A stretch of DNA of 64,000 nucleotides from Leifsonia virtsii (GTDB lineage: Bacteria > Actinomycetota > Actinomycetes > Actinomycetales > Microbacteriaceae): assembly GCF_030433675.1 (NCBI RefSeq), contig NZ_JAROCB010000003.1, positions 62,001 through 126,000 on the forward strand, read 5' to 3'. Positions 3,037 through 17,117 of the stretch are shown here, one piece after another; the stretch's first letter is position 1; the number at the start of each line of letters is the position of its first letter. The notes below the pieces were generated by a model that had not been told where the DNA came from, did no database searches, and saw only the letters and a program-made list of their open reading frames with translations. The translations under genes and the position numbers were made by a program.

Positions 3037-4083
3037 TCACGCCATAACCGAGTTCAGGTGACCGAACAGTTGCCGGGCTATGTAGCGCTTCAGGCTGCGT
3101 CGAATCTCGCGTTTGCTCTTGCCTTCGGCCAGCCGCCTGGCCAGATAGTCGCGGGTTGGAGGATCACAACTCAACCGGACCCGGGCGATGACATCCAACG
3201 CCCGGTTCAACTGCCGATCGCCGTGCCGGTTCAAACGATGCCGGGTCGTGTTCCCGCTCGAGGCCTCCAGCGGAGACGCTCCGGCCAGAGCGGCGAACGC
3301 CGCCTCGCTGCGGACACGCCCCTGATGCGAATACGCGGTGACCAGGATGGCGCCGGTGACAGCGCCAACTCCGAGCAACTGCTGCAACCCGGGCGCAAGC
3401 TCCTGAACATGCCCGGCTAACGCCGCTTGATTCTTAGCCAGCTGCGCGGAGAGCGCTAGGACCGAGACCGCCAGCCGACGCGCTTCCTGCCGGATCGTGA
3501 CCATCGCGGCGTCCTCGGCTGAGCGCTGCCGCCAGCCGGCGACCTCCTTCACCTGGGTGTCGGTGAGTGGCTTGCGGACGTCGATGCCGAGGTCGAAGCT
3601 GCGCAGCAGGGCGGCTAGTGCGTTCCGCTCCGCGGTTCGCCGGCTATCCATCGCCTGTCGGGCAACCAGCAACACACGCAGCGCTGCGCGCAGCCCGTCC
3701 GATCGCGGGGTCGTCAGCCGTTCGACGTCGGAGGCAAGCGCGGTCCTGGCCGCGGCGATGGCGTCGATCTCGTCCGACTTGCCGTGGCCAGCGCGAGCGG
3801 CCCGCTTCGGCGGCCGGACATCGCAAACGTCGACGCCAGCGGCGATCAGCGCTCGCCTGAGACCCGAACCATAGGAACTCGCACCCTCGATCGCGACCAG
3901 GACGCGACCTTGAGCGCGCCGCCGAATCCAAGCCAGTGCTCGGCCGAGACCGTTCGCAGTTGTCGGGAACGTCGCCGCGTCGAGGCGGCGTCCGGTCCCT
4001 GATTCCAGCACGGCATAGGTGTGTGTTCGTGCATGCGTGTCGACGCCGACGACGTGGTCATAGTGATCAGCCACGGAGCTCAC
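3037..4083 (-). CDS. IS110-family transposase
   Basis: 348 aa, the full length for the family. N-terminal RuvC-like DEDD domain: GVDTHARTHTYAVL (first Asp), VAIEGASSYG (Glu) and KSDEIDAIAAAR (last acidic pair). C-terminal helix-hairpin-helix domain with LLGVGAVTGAILVTAY, and FAALAGASPLEASSG containing the conserved Ser of this family. IS110 elements move through a circular form guided by a bridge RNA from the non-coding end and lack long terminal inverted repeats, so exact ends cannot be set by eye. It appears intact. Confidence 0.92.
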   Translation of the reverse strand: MSSVADHYDHVVGVDTHARTHTYAVLESGTGRRLDAATFPTTANGLGRALAWIRRRAQGRVLVAIEGASSYGSGLRRALIAAGVDVCDVRPPKRAARAGHGKSDEIDAIAAARTALASDVERLTTPRSDGLRAALRVLLVARQAMDSRRTAERNALAALLRSFDLGIDVRKPLTDTQVKEVAGWRQRSAEDAAMVTIRQEARRLAVSVLALSAQLAKNQAALAGHVQELAPGLQQLLGVGAVTGAILVTAYSHQGRVRSEAAFAALAGASPLEASSGNTTRHRLNRHGDRQLNRALDVIARVRLSCDPPTRDYLARRLAEGKSKREIRRSLKRYIARQLFGHLNSVMA

Positions 4084-4661
4084 TCCGATGGTCCCCTTCC
4101 GGTTGGCGAACAGTGCAGTTCGTCGGTCTGGAAGTGTTTCGAGGCGGAACTCTTATGAGTCACGCAAGCCGGTTCCCCGGCCGCGGACGACCTTCTATCA
4201 AGCCATCGGAACAGACAAACCGACGCCCAGTTCAGCGCGCGGACAGATCGATCGAAAGGCACCCGGGGGGCCATTTTTGTTTTGAGTCACGCGACGTCGA
4301 ACCGGACGTCAGTCTGCCAGCCAGTCCCAGACCAACCGGTCTCATTAGAGTCTTGTTTGCCTTTCCGGCGGGGAGATCAGTGGCGAGTGGGAGGTGCGGA
4401 GTGCCGGGACCGTGGAATACCGGACTAAAGCGAAGCGGAAGGAGGATATGCCGCGAAAGCCCGGCACGGAAGCACCGGGAACGAGCTACGATCGGGCGGC
4501 GGAAAGACACAGAAAGCTCTGGGAACAGCGCCGCCGGAGGCGGCTCCTCCCGTCGTTACCCGAGCGGTATCGCACTGGGGAACGTCCAGTCGATCTCCGA
4601 CGCCCGCGACCCGCGTATCTCCTGCGAGATCGGCTGTCGCGATTTCGAGCAGCCTGCCACT
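4084..4661. other. Region without a supported gene between IS110 and the metal-efflux operon
   Basis: No frame looks coding. Part of it should be the IS110 non-coding end, which would hold the guide (bridge) RNA. The stretch near 4485-4555 shows weak likeness to the right part of repeat A. Nothing else is recognised. Confidence 0.4.
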
Positions 4662-4683
4662 TGATACAGCGAACGCTGTATCA
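4662..4683. promoter_or_regulatory. Perfect palindromic operator before the metal-efflux operon
   Basis: Arms TGATACAGCG and CGCTGTATCA, ten bases each, separated by AA. The site ends seven bases before the ATG at 4691. Its position and symmetry fit an operator for the ArsR-type repressor encoded two genes downstream, giving autoregulation. Confidence 0.65.
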
Positions 4684-4690
4684 TCGCGGT

Positions 4691-5000
4691 ATGTCCCATG
4701 TCGGCCCCCTCAACTCGATTCCAATCGCGTGTACGCTTTCGCCCGATACCGGCCGGGCCCAGGTTGAGCGCTGGCATCGCTTCGATGACCGATTCGCCGT
4801 CAGTCGCACGAGAACCGACGACCGCCTCGTCATGACTACACCCGCAGCGATGACTCGATCGCAGAGCTCAGCGAGCTCGTCGCCGCTGAACAGTCGTGCT
4901 GCGCGTTCGTCACCTGGTCTGTGGAGACCGATGACAACGACCTTCGGCTCGTCGTCACCGGAACGCCGGAGCAGATCGAAGCCCTCGCCCTCACCCACTG
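4691..5000 (+). pseudogene. Small Cys-Cys protein of a metal operon, frameshifted
   Basis: From ATG 4691 one frame encodes an ordered N-terminus (SHVGPLNSIPIACTLSPD, GRAQVERWHRFDDRF, RTRTDDRLV). Near 4848 the sense passes to another frame encoding TRSDDSIAELSELVAAEQ then SCCAFVTWSVETDDNDL and a stop at 5000. Restoring one missing base near 4848 gives a continuous protein of about 100 aa. Small proteins ending in an AAEQSCC(A/S)F-type motif occur beside mercury and other metal regulators in actinobacteria; the vicinal cysteines suggest metal binding. The frameshift is either real inactivation or a sequence error. Confidence 0.55.
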
Positions 5001-5008
5001 AGAGACCC

Positions 5009-5353
5009 ATGACGACCATCGCCCCCGCGGCCACCATCACGCACACCGCCGCCCTGGCCCGCTTCGGCCACGCACTCTCCGACCCCACCCGCGTCGGCAT
5101 CCTGCTCGCTCTGCGTGAAGCGCCGGCCTTTCCGTCCGACCTCGCCAACGCCCTCAGCGTCTCCCGCCAGGTGATGTCGAACCAACTCGCCTGCCTGCGT
5201 GGGTGCGGGCTGGTCGAAGCCATCCCTGAGGGCCGCCGAACCTGGTATCGACTGGCCGACGGCCACATCGCCCCGGCACTGGACGAGCTGCTACGCGTCA
5301 CACTGTTCGTGGAGCCGGGGTGCTGCGCAGGTGAGGACTGCCACTGCGCATGA
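5009..5353 (+). CDS. ArsR-family metal-sensing repressor
   Basis: 114 aa. ALARFGHALSDPTRVGILLA is the ArsR/SmtB start, followed by a winged helix with recognition helix SVSRQVMSNQLACLRGCGLV, and GRRTWYRLADGHIAPALDEL. Cysteines are C-L-R-G-C in the recognition region and a C-terminal CCAGEDCHC cluster; similar placement is used by CmtR-type Cd/Pb sensors. It follows the frameshifted small gene by nine bases and its stop overlaps the start of the transporter gene (ATGA), so sensor and efflux protein are coupled. The palindrome at 4662-4683 is the likely target. Confidence 0.85.
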   Translation: MTTIAPAATITHTAALARFGHALSDPTRVGILLALREAPAFPSDLANALSVSRQVMSNQLACLRGCGLVEAIPEGRRTWYRLADGHIAPALDELLRVTLFVEPGCCAGEDCHCA

Positions 5354-6018
5354 CCGCACCCATCACGCACGAACGATCCCCTATCCTTCAACGGCGCATC
5401 CGCTTGATCGTCGCCGCCACGATCGGCTACAACCTCATCGAGGCCGTCGTGGCCATCGCGGCCGGCAGTGTCGCATCGTCCGGGGCGCTTGTCGCGTTCG
5501 GATTGGACTCGACGATCGAGGTCCTCTCCGCCGCAGCCGTCGCTTGGCAGTTCACCCGGCGTGATCCGGAGCGTTGGGAGAGACCCACTCTCCGAGTGAT
5601 CGCGGTCGCGTTCTTCGCTCTGGCTGCGTACGTCATTGTCAATTCGTTACTGACGCTGTTCGTCCGTGTCGAGGTCCAGCATTCCCCCGTCGGGATAGTG
5701 CTGACAGCACTGAGCGTGATCATCATGCCGTTCCTGTCCTACGCCGAGCGCCGTGCCGGACGCGAGCTCGGCTCCGCGACCGCGGTGGCCGACTCGAAGC
5801 AGACGCTGATCTGCAGCTACCTGTCGGCTGCCGTTCTGATCGGCCTGCTCCTGAACAGCGGGTTCGGCTGGTGGTGGGCCGACTCGCTCGCGGGAGTCGT
5901 CATCGCCGCCTTCGCTCTTCGCGAGGGCGTCGAGGCGTGGCGCGGGGACGCCTGCGCGACCTCCATTGGGATGGTGCTCGAGGACGGCAGCGACGATAGT
6001 TGGCACCGTCAGAGCTGA
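5350..6018 (+). CDS. Cation transporter, cation-diffusion-facilitator-like
   Basis: 222 aa with about six membrane segments. FGLDSTIEVLSAAAVAWQF carries the acidic metal-site residues of the first conserved CDF region, and SATAVADSKQTLICSYLSA the second. A long cytoplasmic C-terminal domain is absent, as in the short CDF-like proteins often paired with ArsR regulators. It probably exports a divalent ion such as Zn, Cd or Co in exchange for protons. Overlap with the preceding ArsR gene indicates one operon. The exact substrate cannot be read from sequence. Confidence 0.82.
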   Translation: MTAPITHERSPILQRRIRLIVAATIGYNLIEAVVAIAAGSVASSGALVAFGLDSTIEVLSAAAVAWQFTRRDPERWERPTLRVIAVAFFALAAYVIVNSLLTLFVRVEVQHSPVGIVLTALSVIIMPFLSYAERRAGRELGSATAVADSKQTLICSYLSAAVLIGLLLNSGFGWWWADSLAGVVIAAFALREGVEAWRGDACATSIGMVLEDGSDDSWHRQS

Positions 6019-6055: not shown

Positions 6056-7057
6056 CTAGCTGTATGAGGCCAGGACGTTGTTGACGCGAATTGGCACGAG
6101 CGTGGCCGGCGGCTGACCGTCCGCGGCACCGTGCGGGCGGTGGTAGTTGTAGTGCAGGTTCCAGCGCTCGAGGGCGTTGGCGCGTTCGTCTTCTGAGGTC
6201 CATGTCCGTGCATAGAGGAACTCTTCGGCAAGGATCCGGTTGTACCGCTCGATCTTTCCGTTGTGGCGGGGCGTGTAGGGCGTGATCCGTTGGTGCCGCG
6301 ACCCGGCCAGTGCATCGGCGAACGCTGAGGCGCGGTAACAGGATCCGTTGTCGGTCACGATCCGTTCGATGTGCGTGATGCCATGAGCCGCGAACCATGC
6401 CCGCGCTCGCGCGAGGAACGCAACGGCCGTCGCGGCCTGCTCGTTCGGCAAAGCCTCGGTGTACGCGAGGCGTGAGTAGCCGTCAATCGCTGAGTGGAGG
6501 TAGACGTAGCCGGCTCGCGTGCCGCGGGTTTTCGTCCGCGCGACGGCGCGAGCTTCCGGGCTGTCCTTGCCATGAGCCCGCCATCCGCCGCCATCGGGGA
6601 TTCGGCCGACCTTCTTGACGTCCAGGTGAACCATGTGGCCGGGGCACCGAGCGACAATCTTCCTCGCTTCGCGGTTACTTTCCCCGGTCGGGTCGATGAA
6701 GCGGCGCCGGTTGAGCTGCAGGTCGGTGAGGATGCGACTCACCGTGCGCCGACTGATCTGAATGCCGACCTGTTCGAGCTCGAACGTGATCCGAGCCGCT
6801 GACCACTTGTGCTCGCGCCGCATGCGTTCGACTTCGCGAACAACGACGTTGGGGGTGGCTGTCGGGGATTGCTTAGGCGTCGATGAGCGGTCGAGCAGAC
6901 CGACCTCACCGAACTCACGATGGCGATGGACCCACTTTGACGCGGTAGCGCGGGAGATTCCCATCTCAGCTGCCACGTGAGCGATCGGCCGGGTCTTGCA
7001 ACGCTCGACCAGCCGCCGACGTCCCTCGACTGACAGTGGCGAGTTGCGGTGAGTCAT
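6056..7057 (-). CDS. IS481-family transposase
   Basis: 333 aa. The N-terminal helix-turn-helix (HVAAEMGISRATASKWVHRH) is followed by a second HTH-like region and an integrase core: HLDVKKVGRIPDGGG (Asp), IVTDNGSCYRASAF (Asp) and TPRHNGKIERYNRILAEE (Glu). Length and motifs are complete, so it is probably functional. It lies between the metal-efflux and mercury operons, both of which look intact at that side. I could not define the terminal inverted repeats with confidence. Confidence 0.92.
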   Translation of the reverse strand: MTHRNSPLSVEGRRRLVERCKTRPIAHVAAEMGISRATASKWVHRHREFGEVGLLDRSSTPKQSPTATPNVVVREVERMRREHKWSAARITFELEQVGIQISRRTVSRILTDLQLNRRRFIDPTGESNREARKIVARCPGHMVHLDVKKVGRIPDGGGWRAHGKDSPEARAVARTKTRGTRAGYVYLHSAIDGYSRLAYTEALPNEQAATAVAFLARARAWFAAHGITHIERIVTDNGSCYRASAFADALAGSRHQRITPYTPRHNGKIERYNRILAEEFLYARTWTSEDERANALERWNLHYNYHRPHGAADGQPPATLVPIRVNNVLASYS

Positions 7058-8900: not shown

Positions 8901-9563
8901 TCAGCAGCGGCAGTGGCCGTCGTCGGCCACTGCCGCGTTGGCCTGGAACTGGTTGAGGAAGCCGGTCGTGAGGTCGGTACCGATCCGATAGGCAACGGCC
9001 ACGGGCACGACCTCGGCGCGGGGGTGCTCGGCCAGCCAGCCCGCGGCGTCCTCATCGGAGGTGAAGTAGTGGACCTGGTTGCAGAAGGAGGACCGGATCG
9101 AGGTGATCTGGTCGGGGTTGACCAGCGACACCACCGCGGTGGCGGGTTCGACGCTGGTGACGCCGGCGACGGGGTTGATGGTGACCCGGATCGGCTCGCC
9201 GCTGGTCGGGGAGACCGACTCCACGCTCGCCGCGCGCTCGAGCAGGGTCGGAAAGATCAGGGTGTCCAGGGCGCACCAGGTGTAGAGCTCCTCACCGGCC
9301 ACGGTGAACCGGTGAGGGGTGGGGCGCAGGGTGAGGCCCTGGCCGATGATGCGGCCCTGGTCGTCGTACTCGGTGTCCGGCACCGCGGCCAGACCCGTGC
9401 GTACGTCGTCGACCGGACGGCCGGCGGCCGCGGCGAACTGCTCGACGGTGACCGGGCCGCCCTCGACGATCAGCCGCAGCAGCGGGATCAATAGGACGGC
9501 GTCAAGGCCGGTCTCTTCGGTGTTGTTGAGTCGTTCGGGCAGTTGCGTCGTGAGCTCCGACAT
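8901..9563 (-). CDS. merB: Organomercurial lyase MerB
   Basis: 220 aa, normal for the family. The catalytic residues are visible: YTWCALDTLIFP gives Cys97 and Asp100, and SSFCNQVHYF gives Cys161, equal to C96, D99 and C159 of the plasmid R831b enzyme. The N-terminal part is the usual winged-helix-like domain. MerB breaks the carbon-mercury bond and passes Hg(II) to MerA, encoded just upstream in the same operon. Presence of merB makes this a broad-spectrum mercury operon. A C-terminal HCRC adds two further cysteines. Confidence 0.97.
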   Translation of the reverse strand: MSELTTQLPERLNNTEETGLDAVLLIPLLRLIVEGGPVTVEQFAAAAGRPVDDVRTGLAAVPDTEYDDQGRIIGQGLTLRPTPHRFTVAGEELYTWCALDTLIFPTLLERAASVESVSPTSGEPIRVTINPVAGVTSVEPATAVVSLVNPDQITSIRSSFCNQVHYFTSDEDAAGWLAEHPRAEVVPVAVAYRIGTDLTTGFLNQFQANAAVADDGHCRC

Positions 9564-9608: not shown

Positions 9609-11033
9609 TCACGCGCAGCAGGACAGCTTGGAGATGTCGGTGGTGAAGGCCTTGGCGGCGATCCGGATGCCTTCGGTCATGGTCAGGTAGGGCGCCCATG
9701 CGTCGGCGACCTCGGTGACGGTCTTGCCGAGGATGTGGACACCGGCGGCGGCGAGCTCGCCGGCGTCTTTGGCGACGGCGGTGAGGCCGAGGATCTCGCC
9801 GGTCTCAGCGTTGGCGACGATCTTGATGAAGCCGCGGGTGTCGCGGTTGACCAGCGCCCGGGGCACGTAGTCCAGCGGCAGGACGCGGCAGTCGCAGCGG
9901 ATCCCGGCAGCGAGCACCTGGGCCTCGGTCATCCCGACCGCGCCGATCGCCGGACTGGTGAAGGTCACCCGCGGCAGCCGGCTGTGGTCCACCGACCGCT
10001 CAGCGCCAGCGAACGTGTTCTCAGCGACCATGTTGCCGTGGTGGGCGGCGACGTAGACGAACTCGGGGTGCCCGGTCACGTCGCCGGCTGCCCAGATCCG
10101 GGGGTTGGAGGACTGCAGTTGGTCGGTGACCACGATCTCGCCCGTGTCGCCGGTCTTCACCTCCACCGCATCGAGGTTCAGCCCATCGGTGACCGGTCGG
10201 CGGCCGAGGGCGACGAGGACCTGTTCGGCGTGGAATTCCTGCTCGCCGCCGGAGATGTCAGCGGTGACAACAACCTGGCCCCTGACGTCGTCACGGGCAA
10301 CGTGGGTCGGGACCGCACGGCGGACCACGCGGATGCCCTCGTCGGCGAAGACCTCCTGCAGCGCCTTGGATACCTCCGGCTCCTCCTTCGACGCCAGCCG
10401 GGAACGAACCAGCAGGGTGACCTTCGACCCGAGCCGGGCGAACAGTTGGGCCTGCTCCAAGGCGACGTAGCCGCCGCCGAGCACCAGCAGCGAGTCGGGA
10501 ACCTTGGTCAACTCCATCGCCGTGGTCGAGGTCAGGTAGCCGGCCTCCTCAAGACCGTCGATCGGTGGGGCCCATGCGCTGGCGCCGGTGGCGACCAGGT
10601 AGTGATCAGCGTCGATCGTCTCGACCGCACCGTCAGTCGCGGTGACCTCAAGAACGGGCGCTTCTGGCGTGCCGGCGAACGCAGCGTCGCCGTGGCGGAT
10701 CTGCCAGCCGTAGGCGTCGGCGACGTCGACGTACTTCTCACCCCGAAGTTCCTCGACGAGGTCCTGCTTGCTGCTGATCAGCGCGGGCATGTCCACGTCG
10801 TCCGCTGTGGTGGCGATCCCCGGGAAACGGTTGCCCGCCTCGGCAGCGGTCTGGCGGGCCTCAGCGGCGGCGATGAGCGCCTTCGACGGCACGCAGCCGG
10901 TGTTCACGCACGTGCCGCCGAAAGTGCCGCGCTCGATCATCACCACCGACTTGCCGAGCGTGGTCGCGCGGATGGCGGCGGCGAACGCGGCGCCACCCGA
11001 TCCGATGATCGCAAGGTCGTACCTGGACTGCAT
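9609..11033 (-). CDS. merA: Mercuric reductase MerA
   Basis: 474 aa from ATG 11033. The FAD site is IIGSGGAAFAAAIRA, the redox-active disulfide is GGTCVNTGCVPSK (Cys42 and Cys47), and the C-terminal substrate-capturing pair is LSCCA (Cys472, Cys473). NADPH-binding LLVLGGGYVALEQAQ is also present. The N-terminal heavy-metal-associated domain is missing, as in many actinobacterial MerA proteins. It reduces Hg(II) to volatile Hg(0). First gene of the leftward mer operon, read from the MerR-controlled promoter at about 11084-11107. A start further upstream would run into that operator. Confidence 0.98.
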   Translation of the reverse strand: MQSRYDLAIIGSGGAAFAAAIRATTLGKSVVMIERGTFGGTCVNTGCVPSKALIAAAEARQTAAEAGNRFPGIATTADDVDMPALISSKQDLVEELRGEKYVDVADAYGWQIRHGDAAFAGTPEAPVLEVTATDGAVETIDADHYLVATGASAWAPPIDGLEEAGYLTSTTAMELTKVPDSLLVLGGGYVALEQAQLFARLGSKVTLLVRSRLASKEEPEVSKALQEVFADEGIRVVRRAVPTHVARDDVRGQVVVTADISGGEQEFHAEQVLVALGRRPVTDGLNLDAVEVKTGDTGEIVVTDQLQSSNPRIWAAGDVTGHPEFVYVAAHHGNMVAENTFAGAERSVDHSRLPRVTFTSPAIGAVGMTEAQVLAAGIRCDCRVLPLDYVPRALVNRDTRGFIKIVANAETGEILGLTAVAKDAGELAAAGVHILGKTVTEVADAWAPYLTMTEGIRIAAKAFTTDISKLSCCA

Positions 11034-11083
11034 CCCGATTCCTCCCCTGAGTCTTGAGAATTGCTCTTGATGCAGCCACAATG

Positions 11084-11138: not shown

Positions 11139-11528
11139 ATGAGGATCGGCGAACTCGCCGAGGCGGCCGGCACCACCGCCAAGACCCTGCGGTTCTACGA
11201 GGAGCAGGGCCTGCTTCCCGCGGCCGAGCGCACCGCGTCGGGATACCGCGACTACGATCCGGAAGCAGCGACTCGGATCGACTTCATCCACCGCGGCCAG
11301 GCTGCCGGACTTACCCTCGCGCAGATCAAACAGATCCTCGACATCCGCGATGGAGGCGAGATTCCCTGCGGCCACGTCCGGGACCTCCTAGACGTTCGTC
11401 TGAAGGACATTGAGCGCCAGATCTCGGATCTCGTCTCCCTCCGCGACAACGTTGCCGCCCTCCGCGACGCAGCCGCAGAACCCGAACCCGAGACCTGCAA
11501 CGCCGACGAGGTCTGCAGGTACCTGTAG
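11139..11528 (+). CDS. merR: Mercury-responsive regulator MerR
   Basis: 129 aa from ATG 11139. The start MRIGELAEAAGTTAKTLRFY is the MerR winged helix, followed by the long dimerisation helix. The three mercury ligands are present: Cys77 (EIPCGHV), Cys120 and Cys126 (ETCNADEVCRYL), matching the C82/C117/C126 trio of Tn501 MerR. It is transcribed away from merA with the operator between them, so it represses both directions without mercury and activates mer when Hg(II) binds. Confidence 0.95.
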   Translation: MRIGELAEAAGTTAKTLRFYEEQGLLPAAERTASGYRDYDPEAATRIDFIHRGQAAGLTLAQIKQILDIRDGGEIPCGHVRDLLDVRLKDIERQISDLVSLRDNVAALRDAAAEPEPETCNADEVCRYL

Positions 11529-11609: not shown

Positions 11610-12326
11610 CTAGCGCGTAACGCTGGAGTTGGGGGCGAAGACTCGCACAGCTGCCAGCCCGAGGCCTGCCCCAATGAGCTGAGCGCCGATGTACCAGGGC
11701 GCGCTTCCTGGTGCGATGCCGGCGAAGGTGTCGGTGATGGTGCGGCCGATGGTGATGGCGGGGTTGGCGAAGCTGGTGGAGCTGGTGAACCAGTAGGCGG
11801 CTCCGATGTACGCGCCGACTGCTGGGGCGACGATGGCAGCGCGGCCGGTGCGGGCGAGGACGAAGATGACCAGGATCAGCCCGGCGGTTGCGACGACTTC
11901 GGCGAGCAGGTGCGCTGGAGTCGCGCGTTCGGTGCTGCTCCATCGGGCAGCCGGCTGCTCGAACATCAGGTTCGCCAGCACCGCCCCGACAAGGCAGCCG
12001 AGGACCTGCGCGGGGATGTACGACCACAGGCCTCGCCAGGGCCTCCCGCCAGCGGCCGCGTCGACAAGCGAGACGACCGGGTTGAATTGAGCGCCGGAGC
12101 TCGGTGCGAAGACCAGGACGAGCACGGTCAGTCCCAGGGCCGTGGCTAGGGCATTCTCGAGCAGTTGGAGCCCAGTGTCTCCGGGCGAGAGATGCTGAGC
12201 CGCGATCCCAGACCCCACGACCACCGCAGTGAGTCCAGCGCTTCCAACGAACTCGGCCAGCGCCGGACGGAGGACCGCGATAGTTGGGATCCGGATCTGT
12301 TTCGCAGCCTCCGTGGTCGCGCTCAT
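11610..12326 (-). CDS. aqpS: Aquaglyceroporin (AqpS-like) of the arsenic operon
   Basis: 238 aa, six membrane segments plus two half-helices. The two pore motifs are [15 protein letters not shown] (NPV in place of the first NPA) and [13 protein letters not shown] (NPA). The Arg after the second motif, part of the selectivity filter, is present. It is the last gene of a leftward operon with trxB and arsC and overlaps trxB by four bases. In Sinorhizobium an aqpS-arsC pair detoxifies arsenate by reducing it and letting As(III) leave through the channel; the same logic fits here because no arsenite pump is visible. Confidence 0.85.
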
Positions 12327-13285
12327 GCGTTGACTGCCACGGCCTGCTTCACGACCGGGGCACGTCCCGCGAGGTAATGCTGGGCGTCGAGCGCGGCGGC
12401 GCAGCCGGTGCCGGCCGCAGTGATCGCTTGCCGGTAGCGGCGGTCGACGAGGTCGCCGCAGGCGAACACGCCTGGCAGGTTGGTCGCCGTTGTGGGATGG
12501 GCGACCTTGACGTAGCCGTCGGGGTCGAGGTCGATCTGTCCGGCGACGAGGGCGCTCCGGGGGTCGTGGCCGATCGCGACGAACAGTCCGGTGGCATCAA
12601 GAGTCCCGGGTTGCCCGGTAACGGTGTCGCGCAGGGTGAGCCCGTTGAGCTTGTCGTCGCCGTGGGCTTCGTCGATCTGGGTGTTCCAGCGCACGGTGAT
12701 CTTCGGGTTCGCGAGAGCCCGGTCCTGCATGATCTGGGAGGCGCGGAGTTCGTCGCGGCGGTGGATGAGGGTGACGGAGTTGGCGAACCGGGTGAGGAAC
12801 ATAGCCTCTTCCAGTGCGGAGTCGCCACCGCCGGCGACGGCGATGTCCTGGTCGCGGAAGAACGCACCGTCGCAGGTCGCGCACCAGGAGATCCCATATC
12901 CGGAGAGCCGGTCCTCCCCGGCGACGCCGAGCTTGCGATGCGCTGACCCCATCGCGAGGACGACGGCGTGCGCCTGGTAGGTGACGCCGCCTCCGGTGGT
13001 GATTGTCTTGATGTCGCTGGCGAGGTCGACGGCGGTGGCGTCGTCGTAGACGAGGCGGGCGCCGAAGCGTTCGGCCTGCTGGCGCAGGTTTTCCATCAGG
13101 TCGGGGCCTTGGATGCCGTCGATGAATCCGGGGAAGTTCTCGACCTCGGTGGTGTTGACCAGGGCTCCGCCGATCTCGACGGAGCTGGTCAGCACGATCG
13201 GTTCTAGGCCGGCGCGGGCCAGGTAGATCGCGGCGGTGTAGCCGGCGGGGCCGGAGCCGATGACGACGACGTTCTCGACGCTCAC
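12323..13285 (-). CDS. trxB: Thioredoxin reductase
   Basis: 320 aa, full length. FAD motif [20 protein letters not shown], redox centre [11 protein letters not shown] (CATC), NADPH motif [16 protein letters not shown] and C-terminal [23 protein letters not shown]-type FAD closure are all present. The GTG at 13285 is the start: it overlaps the arsC stop by four bases (GTGA). Placed between arsC and aqpS, it likely supplies reducing power for arsenate reduction through thioredoxin or a mycoredoxin-like partner. It is probably an accessory copy besides a chromosomal trxB. Confidence 0.93.
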
Positions 13286-13944
13286 GCGGGCGTCACCTCC
13301 AGACTCTTGAGCAGCTCGCGCACGTGCTGCTCCACCTCGTCGCGGATGCCCCGGACGGTGTCGACGGGCTGGCCCTGCGGATCCTGCAGTTCCCAGTCCT
13401 GGTAGCGCTTGCCAGGGTAAATCGGGCAGGCGTCGCCGCACCCCATCGTCACCACGACGTCGGCGGCCTGGACGACGTCGTCGGTCAGGGGCTTGGGGAA
13501 CTCGCGGCTCATGTCGAGCCCGAGTTCGGTCATCACCTCGACGACGGCCGGGTTCAGTTCGTGGGCGGGCATCGATCCGGCGGAGCGGACGTGGACGCGG
13601 CCGCCGGAGAGTGCCTCGGTGAGGACGGCAGCCATCTGGGAGCGGCCGGAGTTCTGCTCGCAGACGAACAGCACTTCGGGCCAGATCACCGGCAGGGCGC
13701 CCTTGGCCTGCGCGAGCGCGGTCAGCCGTTCGGTCGCGAAGTGGATGGTGCGGGTCGCCAGGTGCGCCTTCACCGTCGCGGTGCGCAGCAAGGCGGTGTA
13801 GGACTCCAGCACGTACCGTTCGACGGTCTCCCGGTTGAAGATGCCCTCGAACTTGGCCGCCAGCTCGTCGGCCAGGCGGCGCAGATACTGTTCCGGGTAG
13901 GCGAGTTCCGGTTGGGCTCGGCGCCCCGTCGCGTCGATGGTCAT
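13282..13944 (-). CDS. arsC: Arsenate reductase ArsC with N-terminal helical extension
   Basis: 220 aa from ATG 13944. Residues 15-85 form a helical extension ([20 protein letters not shown]). The C-terminal part is a low-molecular-weight phosphatase-type ArsC with active loop [16 protein letters not shown] (Cys95 to Arg101), then [20 protein letters not shown] and a [14 protein letters not shown] segment. The same helical region followed by ArsC is seen in the ArsR-ArsC fusion nearby and in corynebacterial ArsC1-type proteins that use mycothiol and mycoredoxin. Five bases separate it from the upstream arsC; the 3' end overlaps trxB. Confidence 0.93.
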
Positions 13945-13949
13945 GGGTC

Positions 13950-14363
13950 TCACACCGCCGCGGGAAGGAGCTCGGCGAGCAGGTTCTCGACGCGCTGCTT
14001 GATATCGTCGCGGATCGGGCGGACCTCCTCGACCGGGCGGCCGGCCGGGTCGGTGAGGTCCCAATCCTCGTAGCGCTTACCGGGGAAGATCGGGCAGGTG
14101 TCGCCGCAGCCCATCGTGATCACCACGTCGGACTCCTTGACGGCCTCGGTGGTGAGGATCTTCGGCTGCTCGCCCGCGATGTCGATGCCCTCCTCGGCCA
14201 TGACCTGGATCGCGACCGGGTTGATCTGGTCTTTCGGCTCGGAGCCGGCGGAGAGGACGTCGACGCGGCCTCCGGAGAGTTCGCGCATGTACCCGGCGGC
14301 CATCTGGGAGCGGCCGGCGTTGTGGATGCAGACGAAGAGGACGGTGGGCTTGGTGTCAGACAT
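13950..14363 (-). CDS. arsC: Arsenate reductase ArsC (single domain)
   Basis: 137 aa from ATG 14363. [20 protein letters not shown] is the P-loop (Cys12, Arg18), followed by [16 protein letters not shown] and [20 protein letters not shown] with the resolving-type cysteines. It is the first gene of the arsC-arsC-trxB-aqpS operon and lies directly downstream of the ArsR-type operator at 14394-14411. It converts arsenate to arsenite. Having three ArsC domains in one cluster (this, 13282-13944 and the fusion) is unusual redundancy and may reflect different electron donors. Confidence 0.95.
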
Positions 14364-14393
14364 GGCGGGGCTCGCTTTCTCTCGTACAGAAAG

Positions 14394-14411
14394 CATAGAT
14401 GCACGTCTATG
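14394..14411. promoter_or_regulatory. ArsR-type operator CATAGA-N6-TCTATG before arsC
   Basis: An 18-bp dyad with six-base arms and a six-base centre, 31 bp before the arsC start. The same arms occur at 15327-15344 over the start of the arsR-arsC fusion, which argues that the fusion protein controls both units. Confidence 0.75.
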
Positions 14412-14417
14412 GTTTTG

Positions 14418-15329
14418 CTAGTCGGTCGCCGGGGTGTTCACGAGCCGTTCAGCATCGATCCGGGTCAGGAGGCCGCGGACGCGTTCCTCGATGTCGTCGC
14501 GGATCGCGCGAACTGCGGCGAGGGGCTGGCCGACGGGGTCGGGGACGTCCCAGTCCAGGTACTCGCGACCCGGGTAGATCGGGCAGGCGTCGCCGCAACC
14601 CATCGTGATCACGTAGTCCGCAGCCCGAACCGCCTCGTCGGTCAACGGCTTGGGGAACTCACCACCGAGCGGGGTGCCGACCTCATCCAGCACGGTCACG
14701 ATCGTCGAGCGGACCGCGTCAGCGGGTTCGGAACCGGCGGTACGGACGCGGACCCGGTCGCCGGCGAGCTGCCGAAGGATCGCCGACGCGAGCTGGGAGC
14801 GGCCGGCGTTCTGCACGCACACGAACAGCACCTCGGGCACCCCGGCCCGCTCGCCGGTGGATCGGAGGAGGGCGTCGAGGCGGGAGACGGCGAACGCGCT
14901 GGTCAGCGATGCCCGGTTCTTGCGGCCGTCGAGGCGGTCGTAGCTGTCCTGGACGTACTGCTCGACGCTCTCCCGGGACAGGACGCCGCGGTAGCGGAGG
15001 GCGAGGTCCTCGATGATCCGATCCGTCGCTGCGCCGTCTTCGGCGGGTCGTTCGTGGCGGACGAGTTCGGCGACCCTGTCTAGCTGATCCGCCGTGATCG
15101 TGTACCAGGCGGTGCGGCCCTCCTGGGTGCGCTCGACCAGGCCCTCCTCGCGTAGCAGCTTCAGGTGATGGGAGACGGTCGGCTGCCGCAGCCCGAGTTT
15201 CTCGGCGAGGCGGGTGACCGAGCCGCGTCCGTCGCGGGCGTCGAGCAGGAGTCGGAGGATGCGCGCCCGCGTGGGATCGCTGATTCGCTTCAAGCTGCGC
15301 AGCGCGTCCGGTTCCGGCACCCCACCCAT
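14418..15329 (-). CDS. ArsR-ArsC fusion protein
   Basis: 303 aa. Residues 8-95 are an ArsR winged helix (SLKRISDPTRARILRLLL; recognition helix QPTVSHHLKLLREEGLV). Residues about 100-160 are the helical region also present in the neighbouring long ArsC. Residues 165-300 are ArsC with loop VLFVCVQNAGRSQLA (Cys171-Arg177) and [12 protein letters not shown]. There is no cysteine at all in the HTH part, so it lacks a normal As(III) site; ligand sensing, if any, must involve the ArsC half. Its own start codon lies inside an operator (15327-15344), and an identical-arm operator precedes the arsC operon downstream. A regulator that also binds or reduces arsenate is the simplest reading. Confidence 0.92.
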   Translation of the reverse strand: MGGVPEPDALRSLKRISDPTRARILRLLLDARDGRGSVTRLAEKLGLRQPTVSHHLKLLREEGLVERTQEGRTAWYTITADQLDRVAELVRHERPAEDGAATDRIIEDLALRYRGVLSRESVEQYVQDSYDRLDGRKNRASLTSAFAVSRLDALLRSTGERAGVPEVLFVCVQNAGRSQLASAILRQLAGDRVRVRTAGSEPADAVRSTIVTVLDEVGTPLGGEFPKPLTDEAVRAADYVITMGCGDACPIYPGREYLDWDVPDPVGQPLAAVRAIRDDIEERVRGLLTRIDAERLVNTPATD

Positions 15330-15344
15330 AGACGCAAGTCTATG
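15327..15344. promoter_or_regulatory. ArsR-type operator overlapping the fusion gene start
   Basis: CATAGAC, then GCAA, then GTCTATG: a perfect dyad whose left end includes the start codon of the arsR-arsC fusion. Binding here would block its transcription or translation start, giving tight autoregulation. Confidence 0.75.
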
Positions 15345-15366: not shown

Positions 15367-16677
15367 TCAGGAGCAGCAGGACGACCCGGACGTCCCGGTG
15401 GAGCACACGCCCGTGGCGGGCAGCACCAGTTGAACGTTCGTCGCGGAGGCGATGTCGCCGGCGAGGTAGGCGGTGATCGAGCGGACCTGCTCGTATCCGG
15501 TGGCGAGCAGGAACGTCGGGGCGCGGCCGTAGGACTTCATCCCGGCCAGGAAGAAGTTCGGCTCCGGCTGCCGCAGCTCGGCGAACCCGTGCGGCTCGAC
15601 CGTGCCGCACGAATGGACGTTCGGGTCGATCAGCGGCGCCAGCCGAGCCGGCGCCTCCACGATGTCATCGAGCTCCAGCCGGATCTCGCGCAGCATGTCC
15701 AGGTTCGGGCGGAACCCGGTCGCGTTGACGACCACGTGGGTGTCATGCTCGACCAGCTCGCCGGCGCGCTGCCCGATCAGCCGGACACCGCCGTCGATGG
15801 GAGCCAGGCGGAGGATCTCGAACCGGTCGAGCTGCTGGATCGCGCCGGTGGCGATCAGCCGGTCGACGCGCTTGCCGATCGCGGTGCGGGCGATCAGTTC
15901 GTCATCCTCGGAGGTCGTGACCCGGATGGCGCTGGCGTTGCGGATCAGCCAGGTGATCTGCGTCTCCGGTACCTCTCGCTTCAGCGCGGCGAGGTTCAGC
16001 AGCGTGTTCGCGGCCGAGTGCCCGGCGCCGACGACGGTGACGCGCTTGCCCGCGAACCGGTCGCGCTCACGGCCGACCGCATCCGGGAGCGCGTGCGAGA
16101 CATGCTCGGCGACCGCTGAGAGCCCGAGCGGGTCGAGACCGGAGGAGGCCAGGCTGTTCGGGGTGAGGTAGGTGCCAGAGGCGTCGATGACGGCACTGGC
16201 GGTGACCTCCTGGACGCCGTCGGCGTCGGTGATGCGCAGCAGGAACGGGGTGTCGGCGCGGCCGGCGCTGCGTGTGCGGTCCATGCCCTCCCGGCTGACC
16301 GCGTCCACGGCGACGCCGTAGCGGATGCGGGAGGCGATCGCGTCCAGCTTCGAAAGCGGCTCGAGATACGCGGTGACGAACTCGCCGCCCGTCGGCAGCC
16401 CCGTGGCCTCCGGAGCGGTCCACCCGGTGGCTTCCAGAAGGCGGCGAGAAGCCGGGTCGACCAGGTGCCGCCACGGCGAGAAGAACCTGATGTGCGCCCA
16501 CTTCTGGATACTCGCTCCAGCGTCGGCGCCGATTTCGTAGACGACGAAGTCGATGCCACGTTCGACGAGGTTCGCTGCCGCGGCCAGTCCGATCGGGCCG
16601 GCGCCGATGATCGCGACAGGCAGCCCGTCGAGACGGCTGCTGCGCGCGGCGGGGGTGGTCAGGTCGACCAGAGTCAT
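15367..16677 (-). CDS. ArsO-like flavin monooxygenase/oxidoreductase of the arsenic cluster
   Basis: 436 aa from ATG 16677, chosen because GGAGG lies five bases before it. The FAD motif is VAIIGAGPIGLAAAANLVER, the second dinucleotide motif is VTVVGAGHSAANTLLNLAAL, and VVVNATGFRPNLDML is typical of flavin-containing monooxygenase-like proteins. Such proteins (ArsO) recur in actinobacterial ars operons with unsettled function. The C-terminus carries CSTGTSGSSCCS, three cysteines that could bind a metalloid. Divergent from arsR (16761) with a shared operator region. Oxidation of an arsenic or thiol compound is plausible but unproven. Confidence 0.72.
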   Translation of the reverse strand: MTLVDLTTPAARSSRLDGLPVAIIGAGPIGLAAAANLVERGIDFVVYEIGADAGASIQKWAHIRFFSPWRHLVDPASRRLLEATGWTAPEATGLPTGGEFVTAYLEPLSKLDAIASRIRYGVAVDAVSREGMDRTRSAGRADTPFLLRITDADGVQEVTASAVIDASGTYLTPNSLASSGLDPLGLSAVAEHVSHALPDAVGRERDRFAGKRVTVVGAGHSAANTLLNLAALKREVPETQITWLIRNASAIRVTTSEDDELIARTAIGKRVDRLIATGAIQQLDRFEILRLAPIDGGVRLIGQRAGELVEHDTHVVVNATGFRPNLDMLREIRLELDDIVEAPARLAPLIDPNVHSCGTVEPHGFAELRQPEPNFFLAGMKSYGRAPTFLLATGYEQVRSITAYLAGDIASATNVQLVLPATGVCSTGTSGSSCCS

Positions 16678-16686
16678 CTCATCCTC

Positions 16687-16741
16687 CATTGATGTTCTTC
16701 GATGCGTTGATCCTGCACCCATCCATCGAAGTTTGTCAATA
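16687..16741. promoter_or_regulatory. Two ArsR-type half-palindromes in the arsO-like/arsR divergent promoter
   Basis: CATTGA-N6-TCGATG (16687-16704) and CATCGA-N6-TCAATA (16724-16741), 37 bp apart. Both keep the six-six-six design of the other two ars operators but with CATYGA in place of CATAGA. They are placed to control both divergent genes and probably bind the stand-alone ArsR. Confidence 0.6.
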
Positions 16742-16760
16742 TTGTCGCTAGGATGGATCC

Positions 16761-17117
16761 ATGAGCACCCTGGAAGCACTCCCCATCACCCCTGTCGGTG
16801 CCTGTTGCACACCGGTCACCAAGGACGTGCTCTCACTCGCGGACGCCGAAGCGATGGCCGTCGCGTTCAAGGCGCTCAGCGATCCCACCCGGCTGCGGCT
16901 GCTCTCGATCGTGGCCGCCTCCGACGGCGACGAAGCCTGCGTCTGCGACCTCACCGAACCGATCGGCCTCAGCCAGCCGACGGTCTCCCACCACCTCAAG
17001 ATCCTGATGGACGCCGGTTACCTCACCCGTTCCAAGCGGGGTACCTGGGCGTACTACAAGCTCGTCCCGGGTAGCCTCGACCGCGTCTCCGCACTCCTGG
17101 CTACCGCGGCGGCATGA
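16761..17117 (+). CDS. arsR: Arsenic-responsive repressor ArsR (Cys15/Cys16 type)
   Basis: 118 aa. Winged helix with FKALSDPTRLRLLSIVAAS and recognition helix LSQPTVSHHLKILMDAGYL. Cysteines are Cys15-Cys16 near the N-terminus (GACCTPV) and ACVCDL at 60-62. In Corynebacterium glutamicum ArsR, As(III) is bound by Cys15, Cys16 and Cys55; the same N-terminal pair at the same positions is striking. Its stop overlaps the following acetyltransferase gene (ATGA). It likely represses itself and the divergent arsO-like gene through the sites at 16687-16741. Confidence 0.93.
   Translation: MSTLEALPITPVGACCTPVTKDVLSLADAEAMAVAFKALSDPTRLRLLSIVAASDGDEACVCDLTEPIGLSQPTVSHHLKILMDAGYLTRSKRGTWAYYKLVPGSLDRVSALLATAAA

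Follow-up and report, generated by a model that had tools for sequence, protein, structure and literature searches.

Textbook ars operons are induced by arsenite, the product of the reductase, so arsenate has to be reduced before arsenic can be detected. Within the window, a stretch of 64,000 nucleotides of Leifsonia virtsii, a gene on the minus strand (14418..15329) encodes a 303-residue protein in which an ArsR repressor is joined to an arsenate reductase. Which half of this protein receives the arsenic signal, and is that signal arsenite or arsenate?

The open reading frame is intact and begins with ATG. Pfam assigns HTH_5 to residues 18-66, Phosphatase-like_N, a three-helix bundle, to residues 103-154, and LMWPc to residues 167-288. 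The initial annotation had described an ArsR-ArsC fusion; both halves are present, but the protein is a three-part rather than a two-part fusion, with the bundle in between. The AlphaFold2 monomer model has a mean pLDDT of 86.3 and a pTM of 0.65. The winged-helix ArsR half (residues ~10-92; 15054..15302, minus strand) was delimited by Pfam HTH_5/HTH_20, the alignment, and the model. It scores 51.2 bits against PF01022 (cut-off 22) and 76.4 bits against NF033788 (cut-off 55), and Foldseek finds its fold similar to those of SqrR and HlyU. The linker (residues ~96-157; 14859..15044, minus strand) matches PF21234 Phosphatase-like_N with 38.5 bits (cut-off 27), and its modeled helices span residues 96-112, 119-132, and 139-157. 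The LMW-phosphatase-type arsenate reductase half (residues ~166-298; 14436..14834, minus strand) was recognized by LMWPc (79.2 bits), Foldseek, and cysteine spacing, and has C171 in a CX5R motif together with C245 and C249. Naming this predicted reductase by NCBIfam was ruled out, as it scores under the cut-off of the ArsC models (64.9 vs 157.6), like the two unfused ArsC proteins of the window. The closest PDB chain by both sequence and fold is 3t38 (Foldseek TMt 0.88-0.91), Cg_ArsC1' of Corynebacterium glutamicum, which combines a three-helix bundle with the LMWP fold but lacks a DNA-binding half. The cysteine spacing of the fusion (74 and 4; C-(73)-C-(3)-C) equals that of C88/C162/C166 of Cg_ArsC1', residues stated to be catalytic (PMC6514093). 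Judged by its sequence, the frame is an ArsR-ArsC (ArsRC) fusion with a reductase half of the thioredoxin-dependent Cg_ArsC1' type and of predicted activity.

Residues 1-170 contain no cysteine, and C171, C245, and C249 are the only cysteines of the protein. The initial annotation was thus right that the DNA-binding part is cysteine-free and that the cysteines are confined to the ArsC half. Three types of As(III)-sensing ArsR were compared, with a CxC motif, an N-terminal CC, or a CC-X6-C triad. The DNA-binding half of the fusion offers no cysteine for such a site, and the positions aligned with CxC are S and T, as S37-V38-T39 aligns with the C-V-C of the canonical ArsR in the window. In a single protein this absence is not surprising, and we rejected it as such: at a cysteine frequency of 0.97% (predicted genes of 18 related loci), 163 residues are free of cysteine with a probability of ~0.20. 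The evidential weight lies in the family pattern.

Among 199 genomes of the family to which the window belongs, 33 match the fusion at E<=1e-60. The 29 full-length fusions used as loci are L001 and L009-L036; the full-length G086 and G099 were omitted, and L037 is without the HTH. At least 572 relatives were confirmed in a wider contig collection, and the best 80 were used as loci; the viral contigs searched yielded no relative of the fusion. In the main Microbacteriaceae family, 43 of 46 members have no cysteine before the reductase domain, the exceptions having one (L036 and L048) or two (L054); where the operator ATG described below was absent, the protein was taken to begin 12 residues ahead of the HTH match. 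C171, C245, and C249 are invariant in 20 aligned main-type fusions. Standalone ArsR frames in the best-80 loci, taken at E<1e-16 to an HMM made from the Cys-less fusions, show the opposite pattern, with CxC in 41 of 50, CVG in one, and neither in eight. Cysteine-based As(III) sensing, which the initial annotation took as the rule for ArsR proteins, is too general a premise, since arsenate-responding ArsRs have been reported or proposed (PMC5658604 and PMC9601151). We also surveyed the fusions for HTH cysteines. The 76 three-part fusion frames, from two overlapping sets, comprise 54 without cysteine at the CxC positions (three of them split-locus partners with a degenerate HTH), 21 with CxC, and one with a single cysteine. 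Fusions whose HTH part does have As-binding cysteines, proposed by the initial annotation as the counterexample to look for, do exist; they form a separate clade found mostly with ACR3, and the reading for the Cys-less fusions is not refuted by them. They also have cysteine at all three reductase positions. Their existence means that fusion alone does not imply sensing by ArsC. One further CxC-type fusion, on Microbacterium plasmid L178 (~3300-4400), is unannotated, with HTH and reductase in different frames.

The fusion gene starts within an operator. Operator 1 (15327..15344; CATAGACGCAAGTCTATG on the plus strand) is a perfect CATAGA-N6-TCTATG palindrome kept in relatives; read on the minus strand, its last ATG is the one with which the fusion starts. 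Operator 2 (14394..14411; CATAGATGCACGTCTATG), equally perfect, lies ahead of the arsC operon. Both placements had been given in the initial annotation and are confirmed. A pattern search found an operator-like site with two mismatches, CATTGATGTTCTTCGATG (16687..16704), which from its position is probably the operator of a separate CxC ArsR. At up to two mismatches, the shuffled window gave a mean of 0.35 sites. At up to one mismatch, operators 1 and 2 are the only sites in the 4.2-Mb genome, and a reversed control pattern had no site in the whole genome. Positions 3-8 of the operator read TAGACT, a putative -10 element (15337..15342, minus strand) that would put the ATG at +1. In the 43 relatives with an operator and an in-frame ATG, T8 is present in 40, and the A11 expected from symmetry in only one. 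The pattern suggests that the fusion mRNA is probably leaderless, with the -10 element inside the operator and the ATG as +1.

The arrangement recurs in the main family. In 39 of 46 loci, the 160 bp upstream of the HTH contain an operator matching at least 11 of 12 positions (25 perfect), and in 43 of 46 members the last ATG of an operator matching at least 9/12 is in frame. A second operator lies 873-926 bp past the HTH start, just ahead of the next gene, in 12 of 17 Cys-less loci of the 80-locus set. Overall, Cys-less fusion loci have 28 sites of at least 11/12 in 184,705 bases (0.1 in shuffles), and control loci have five in 520,974 bases, two of these in CxC-fusion loci. The CxC fusions have no operator at their own start (best match 5-8 of 12, n=20); in four of these 20 loci, a 10-11/12 site is located upstream, at 1.4-2.5 kb from the fusion. 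The operator type is thus common to both clades, and we dropped the idea that it marks Cys-less fusions alone, as it has counterparts in CxC-fusion loci and near genes that are not fused.

Behind operator 2, four genes follow on the minus strand: an LMWP-type arsC (13950..14396; alternative start at 14363, MSDTKPT), an unfused three-helix-bundle ArsC of the Cg_ArsC1' type (13282..13944), a thioredoxin reductase gene, trxB (12323..13288; TIGR01292, 375.5 bits, cut-off 343.45), and a MIP/aquaporin-family channel (11610..12326; PF00230) that is a candidate arsenite exit. The two reductases were assigned by reading frame and Pfam. The operon has the composition of an AqpS-type operon, with a reductase and a MIP channel and without ACR3. 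Arsenate reduction and exit through an aquaglyceroporin, AqpS, are likewise combined in the ars operon of Sinorhizobium meliloti, a member of another phylum (PMC6205960). PF01758, the ACR3 family, was not found anywhere in this genome by a search that was positive in 12 of 14 known control genomes. The genome holds a 391-codon frame of the ArsB/CitMHS family (C2:1130227-1131354), which scores above the Pfam ArsB cut-off, higher as CitMHS, and below the NCBIfam ArsB cut-offs. On the other side of the fusion, a separate ArsR (16761..17117, plus strand; reading frame, Pfam, NCBIfam) has an N-terminal C15C16 and C60-V-C62 and is likely the As(III) sensor of a neighboring unit. Divergent from it is an FAD-dependent monooxygenase-like protein (15367..16779, minus strand; Pyr_redox_3), which reaches 49.8 bits against the ArsO model NF040505 (cut-off 425).

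The surroundings form a mercury/arsenic resistance island, in which merB (8901-9563) and merA (9609-11081), together with a MerR regulator (11148-11528), adjoin the ars genes. The window also has an IS481-type transposase (6056-7057) and a protein (4394-5350) that contains an ArsR-type HTH close to the C terminus (residues 230-275). A second ars cluster of the same genome (G000:C4 ~290.9-291.9 kb; L150 ~4880-5862) contains an unfused ArsC and, in divergent orientation, a CxC ArsR.

Two trees place the Cys-less fusions apart from the CxC fusions. In the tree of the three-helix bundle and reductase (115 different rows, quick method), 46 Cys-less Microbacteriaceae fusions and eight split loci form one clade (99*), and 19 CxC fusions, three Promicromonospora fusions, and L060 form another (100*); the CxC fusion L056 pairs elsewhere with L059, which lacks CxC. 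The HTH tree has 118 rows in only 87 columns. One side of its 99* branch holds the 46 Cys-less HTHs and eight split ArsRs, and the other side holds 39 standalone CxC ArsRs, 20 CxC fusions, and five others. The idea of a post-fusion loss of CxC in the main Cys-less family is not supported by these trees, in which the family is not nested inside a CxC group. The Promicromonospora fusions (L066, L068, and L089) are placed by the trees within the CxC fusion clade (100*, 99*), as lineages that lost CxC after fusion; L060 and L059, on long branches, are weaker cases of such a loss.

The eight standalone ArsRs without cysteine all come from split loci (L040, L057, L058, L064, L075, L077, L082, and L093). 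In 8/8, the gene directly after a Cys-less ArsR of ~110 residues encodes a degenerate ArsR-like domain, a three-helix bundle, and ArsC, as in L040:8586-10109, where a Cys-free ArsR precedes the ArsC-partner gene. Three of the eight degenerate domains reach the HTH profile at E 1e-3. Among the 50 rows listed by Foldseek for the ArsC partner, only ArsC/LMWP-like or unrelated chains occur. From the three HMM hits, the alignment, and the order of predicted elements in a monomer model (pLDDT 76.2), the N-terminal domain of the partner looks like an ArsR-like domain. The split loci look like tandem pairs in which DNA binding and sensing may be divided between two genes.

Cys-less DNA-binding halves also occur in shorter fusions. 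When plasmids were searched with a short HTH-LMWP fusion, 50 records matched, and the 22 taken from the 40 matches listed comprise nine short actinobacterial fusions, 11 Rhodobacterales fusions, and two pairs of unfused ArsR and ArsC. In the short actinobacterial fusions (L158 and L169-L176), both the HTH cysteines and the third ArsC cysteine are absent in 9/9, and five of the best-80 loci have the same pattern; a three-cysteine arsenite site is thus not evident in this type. Their neighbors are MIP in five, pst phosphate-transport genes in three, and neither in one. The Rhodobacterales fusions (L155-L157, L160-L165, L167, and L168) are followed in 11/11 by the genes for an ArsJ-associated GAPDH and arsJ. 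At the end of the ArsR half, six of them have a CC-X6-C triad, like that of the Paracoccus denitrificans ArsR that binds As(III) (PMC9137774), and five lack it, three of these with single or scattered cysteines. The triad was probably lost among these fusions, as the five triad-less sequences group beside a triad member (92/88, not starred, midpoint root). ACR3 adjoins two of the six triad-bearing loci. A link between the GAPDH-ArsJ context and cysteine loss was dropped: the six triad-bearing fusions share the context, which consequently does not discriminate.

CxC and Cys-less fusions differ in the candidate arsenic exits beside them. In flanks that reach 5 kb, or less where a contig ends, 15 of 20 CxC-fusion loci have ACR3 and none has MIP; of 22 Cys-less loci, none has ACR3 and 14 have MIP. 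The Fisher values, 1.6e-7 for ACR3 and 6.8e-6 for MIP, ignore shared ancestry. The plasmid CxC fusions L177 and L179 have ACR3 directly upstream. In the 29 family genomes with a Cys-less fusion, MIP lies within 5 kb in 18 and within 600 bp in 12, and SBF/ACR3 (PF01758) lies within 5 kb in none, the nearest being 5,411 bp away. In some of the 22 Cys-less loci compared above, MIP adjoins a separate CxC ArsR rather than the fusion. Split loci have ACR3 in 3/8 and MIP in 2/8, which gives no clear preference. Genes for a PstS-like phosphate-binding protein are present in the flanks of L046, L047, L051, L055, and the split loci L057, L058, L077, and L093. According to a review, AqpS confers resistance to internally made arsenite and sensitivity to external arsenite (PMC6205960). 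With such a channel, a regulator responding to external arsenite would be harmful and arsenate induction useful. MIP may not be the sole exit, as a PF01758 match occurs somewhere in 21 of the 29 genomes (MIP in 29/29), and the genome of the window has its ArsB/CitMHS-family protein.

We propose that the fusion represses its own gene and receives the arsenic signal through the arsenate reductase half, and we put the probability of this reading at about 0.55. Cys-less DNA-binding halves recur where ArsC is fused to them or is their partner, which suggests that the signal enters by the ArsC half; arsenate turnover at C171 would be the most likely form of gating. Without arsenic, the ArsR halves would dimerize on operators 1 and 2 and repress. 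Occupancy of operator 1 would cover the fusion's own -10 element and start codon, and occupancy of operator 2 would control arsC, the three-helix-bundle arsC, trxB, and the MIP channel. Arsenate entering via phosphate transporters would dock in the CX5R loop of the ArsC half, where C171 would attack it. The arsenylated state or a disulfide state (C171-C245 or C245-C249) would then alter the three-helix bundle and free the operators, and the induced reductases would make arsenite that leaves through the MIP channel. That the reductase domain is the sensor, as the initial annotation suggested, is partly supported by the comparison: Cys-less ArsR halves coupled to ArsC occur in several lineages, with loss in Promicromonospora and probable loss in Rhodobacterales, and the aligned main-type fusions keep the three reductase cysteines. 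To the two signals it offered, arsenate and the redox or arsenylated state of the enzyme, As(III) held by the ArsC cysteines has to be added as a third candidate. A counterpoint is that a separate CxC ArsR, present in the window and within 5 kb of 8/17 Cys-less fusions of the best-80 set, may supply arsenite sensing in trans.

The fusion could sense As(III) after all, by capturing the product on C171, C245, and C249. The invariance of these residues and their presence in CxC fusions would fit such a site, and in a Paracoccus ArsRC fusion the ArsR half is reported to bind the As(III) that the fused ArsC produces (PMC9479143). Unfused ArsC, however, uses the same cysteines for catalysis, the short HTH-LMWP fusions combine a Cys-less HTH half with two of the three, and many Cys-less fusions adjoin MIP rather than a pump, so that we consider product capture unlikely. 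Less probable again is a fusion blind to arsenic, a bifunctional reductase and autorepressor relieved by another, As(III)-bound ArsR or by changes in amount. The CxC ArsR at 16761-17117 and those near 8/17 Cys-less loci could play this part, as related ArsRs can share similar operators and the L115 locus has an 11/12 site near a standalone CxC ArsR. But no CxC ArsR was found within the flanks of 9/17 Cys-less loci, the site near the CxC ArsR of the window is two bases off the operators of the fusion, and the split DNA-binding and ArsC genes remain adjacent in 8/8.

A general thiol-redox switch, in which an oxidant-made C171-C245 or C245-C249 disulfide frees the DNA and arsenic is one trigger among others, appears the least probable of these alternatives. 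The SqrR/HlyU-like fold of the HTH half, the trxB gene in the operon, and the reported redox response of the ars ArsR of Paracoccus denitrificans (PMC9137774) are consistent with it. Operator 2, on the other hand, heads an arsenic set of reductases and channel, and apart from operators 1 and 2 the genome has no site with one mismatch or fewer.

The ArsR-ArsC fusion per se is already published. Firrincieli et al. 2019 (PMC6514093) described such fusions in the actinobacterial clusters C4 and C7, which contain the same kind of protein and probably take in the present clades; the parts of that article available to us say nothing about whether the HTH half has cysteines, nor about the operator or a contrast between MIP and ACR3. 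Fusions of L. ferriphilum, Microbacterium, and Sinorhizobium appear in Ben Fekih et al. 2018 (PMC6205960), in whose available text we found no analysis of their mechanism or cysteines, and that of L. ferriphilum also in PMC4443643. The Paracoccus ArsRC fusion (Chen et al. 2022, Environ Microbiol 24:1977, via PMC9479143) resembles the present fusion in having ArsR and ArsC in one protein and in tying arsenate sensing to reduction, but is alphaproteobacterial and is described as binding As(III) in its ArsR half. The CC-X6-C triad is absent from the two Paracoccus fusions analyzed here, L155 and L157. TtSmtB of Thermus thermophilus, a reported arsenate-sensing member of the ArsR family (PMC5658604), and the ArsR of the V. 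cholerae var operon, for which arsenate sensing was proposed (PMC9601151), both have an incomplete As(III) site, and unlike the present fusion neither is fused to a reductase. In the literature searched, with subscription papers mostly outside its scope, Cys-less ArsR-ArsC fusions, the split form, and the ACR3/MIP contrast are not described.

More tentatively, and at somewhat less than even odds, the Cys-less proteins may represent a class of arsenate-gated repressors, trigger enzymes whose signal is the catalytic state of the fused or partnered reductase. The Cys-less state would have arisen in the Microbacteriaceae clade, Promicromonospora, Rhodobacterales, and the short actinobacterial type, and the split loci would encode heterodimers in which a Cys-less ArsR binds DNA and an ArsR-like adaptor, itself non-binding, carries ArsC. 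The matched pairs that the comparison provides, CxC and Cys-less fusions as well as split and fused forms, make the sensing question directly testable. If the proposal is true, a repressor gated by its own reductase would read arsenate directly and would be a natural arsenate-specific biosensor part; it would also account for the different sensor of operons whose export route is a channel instead of a pump.
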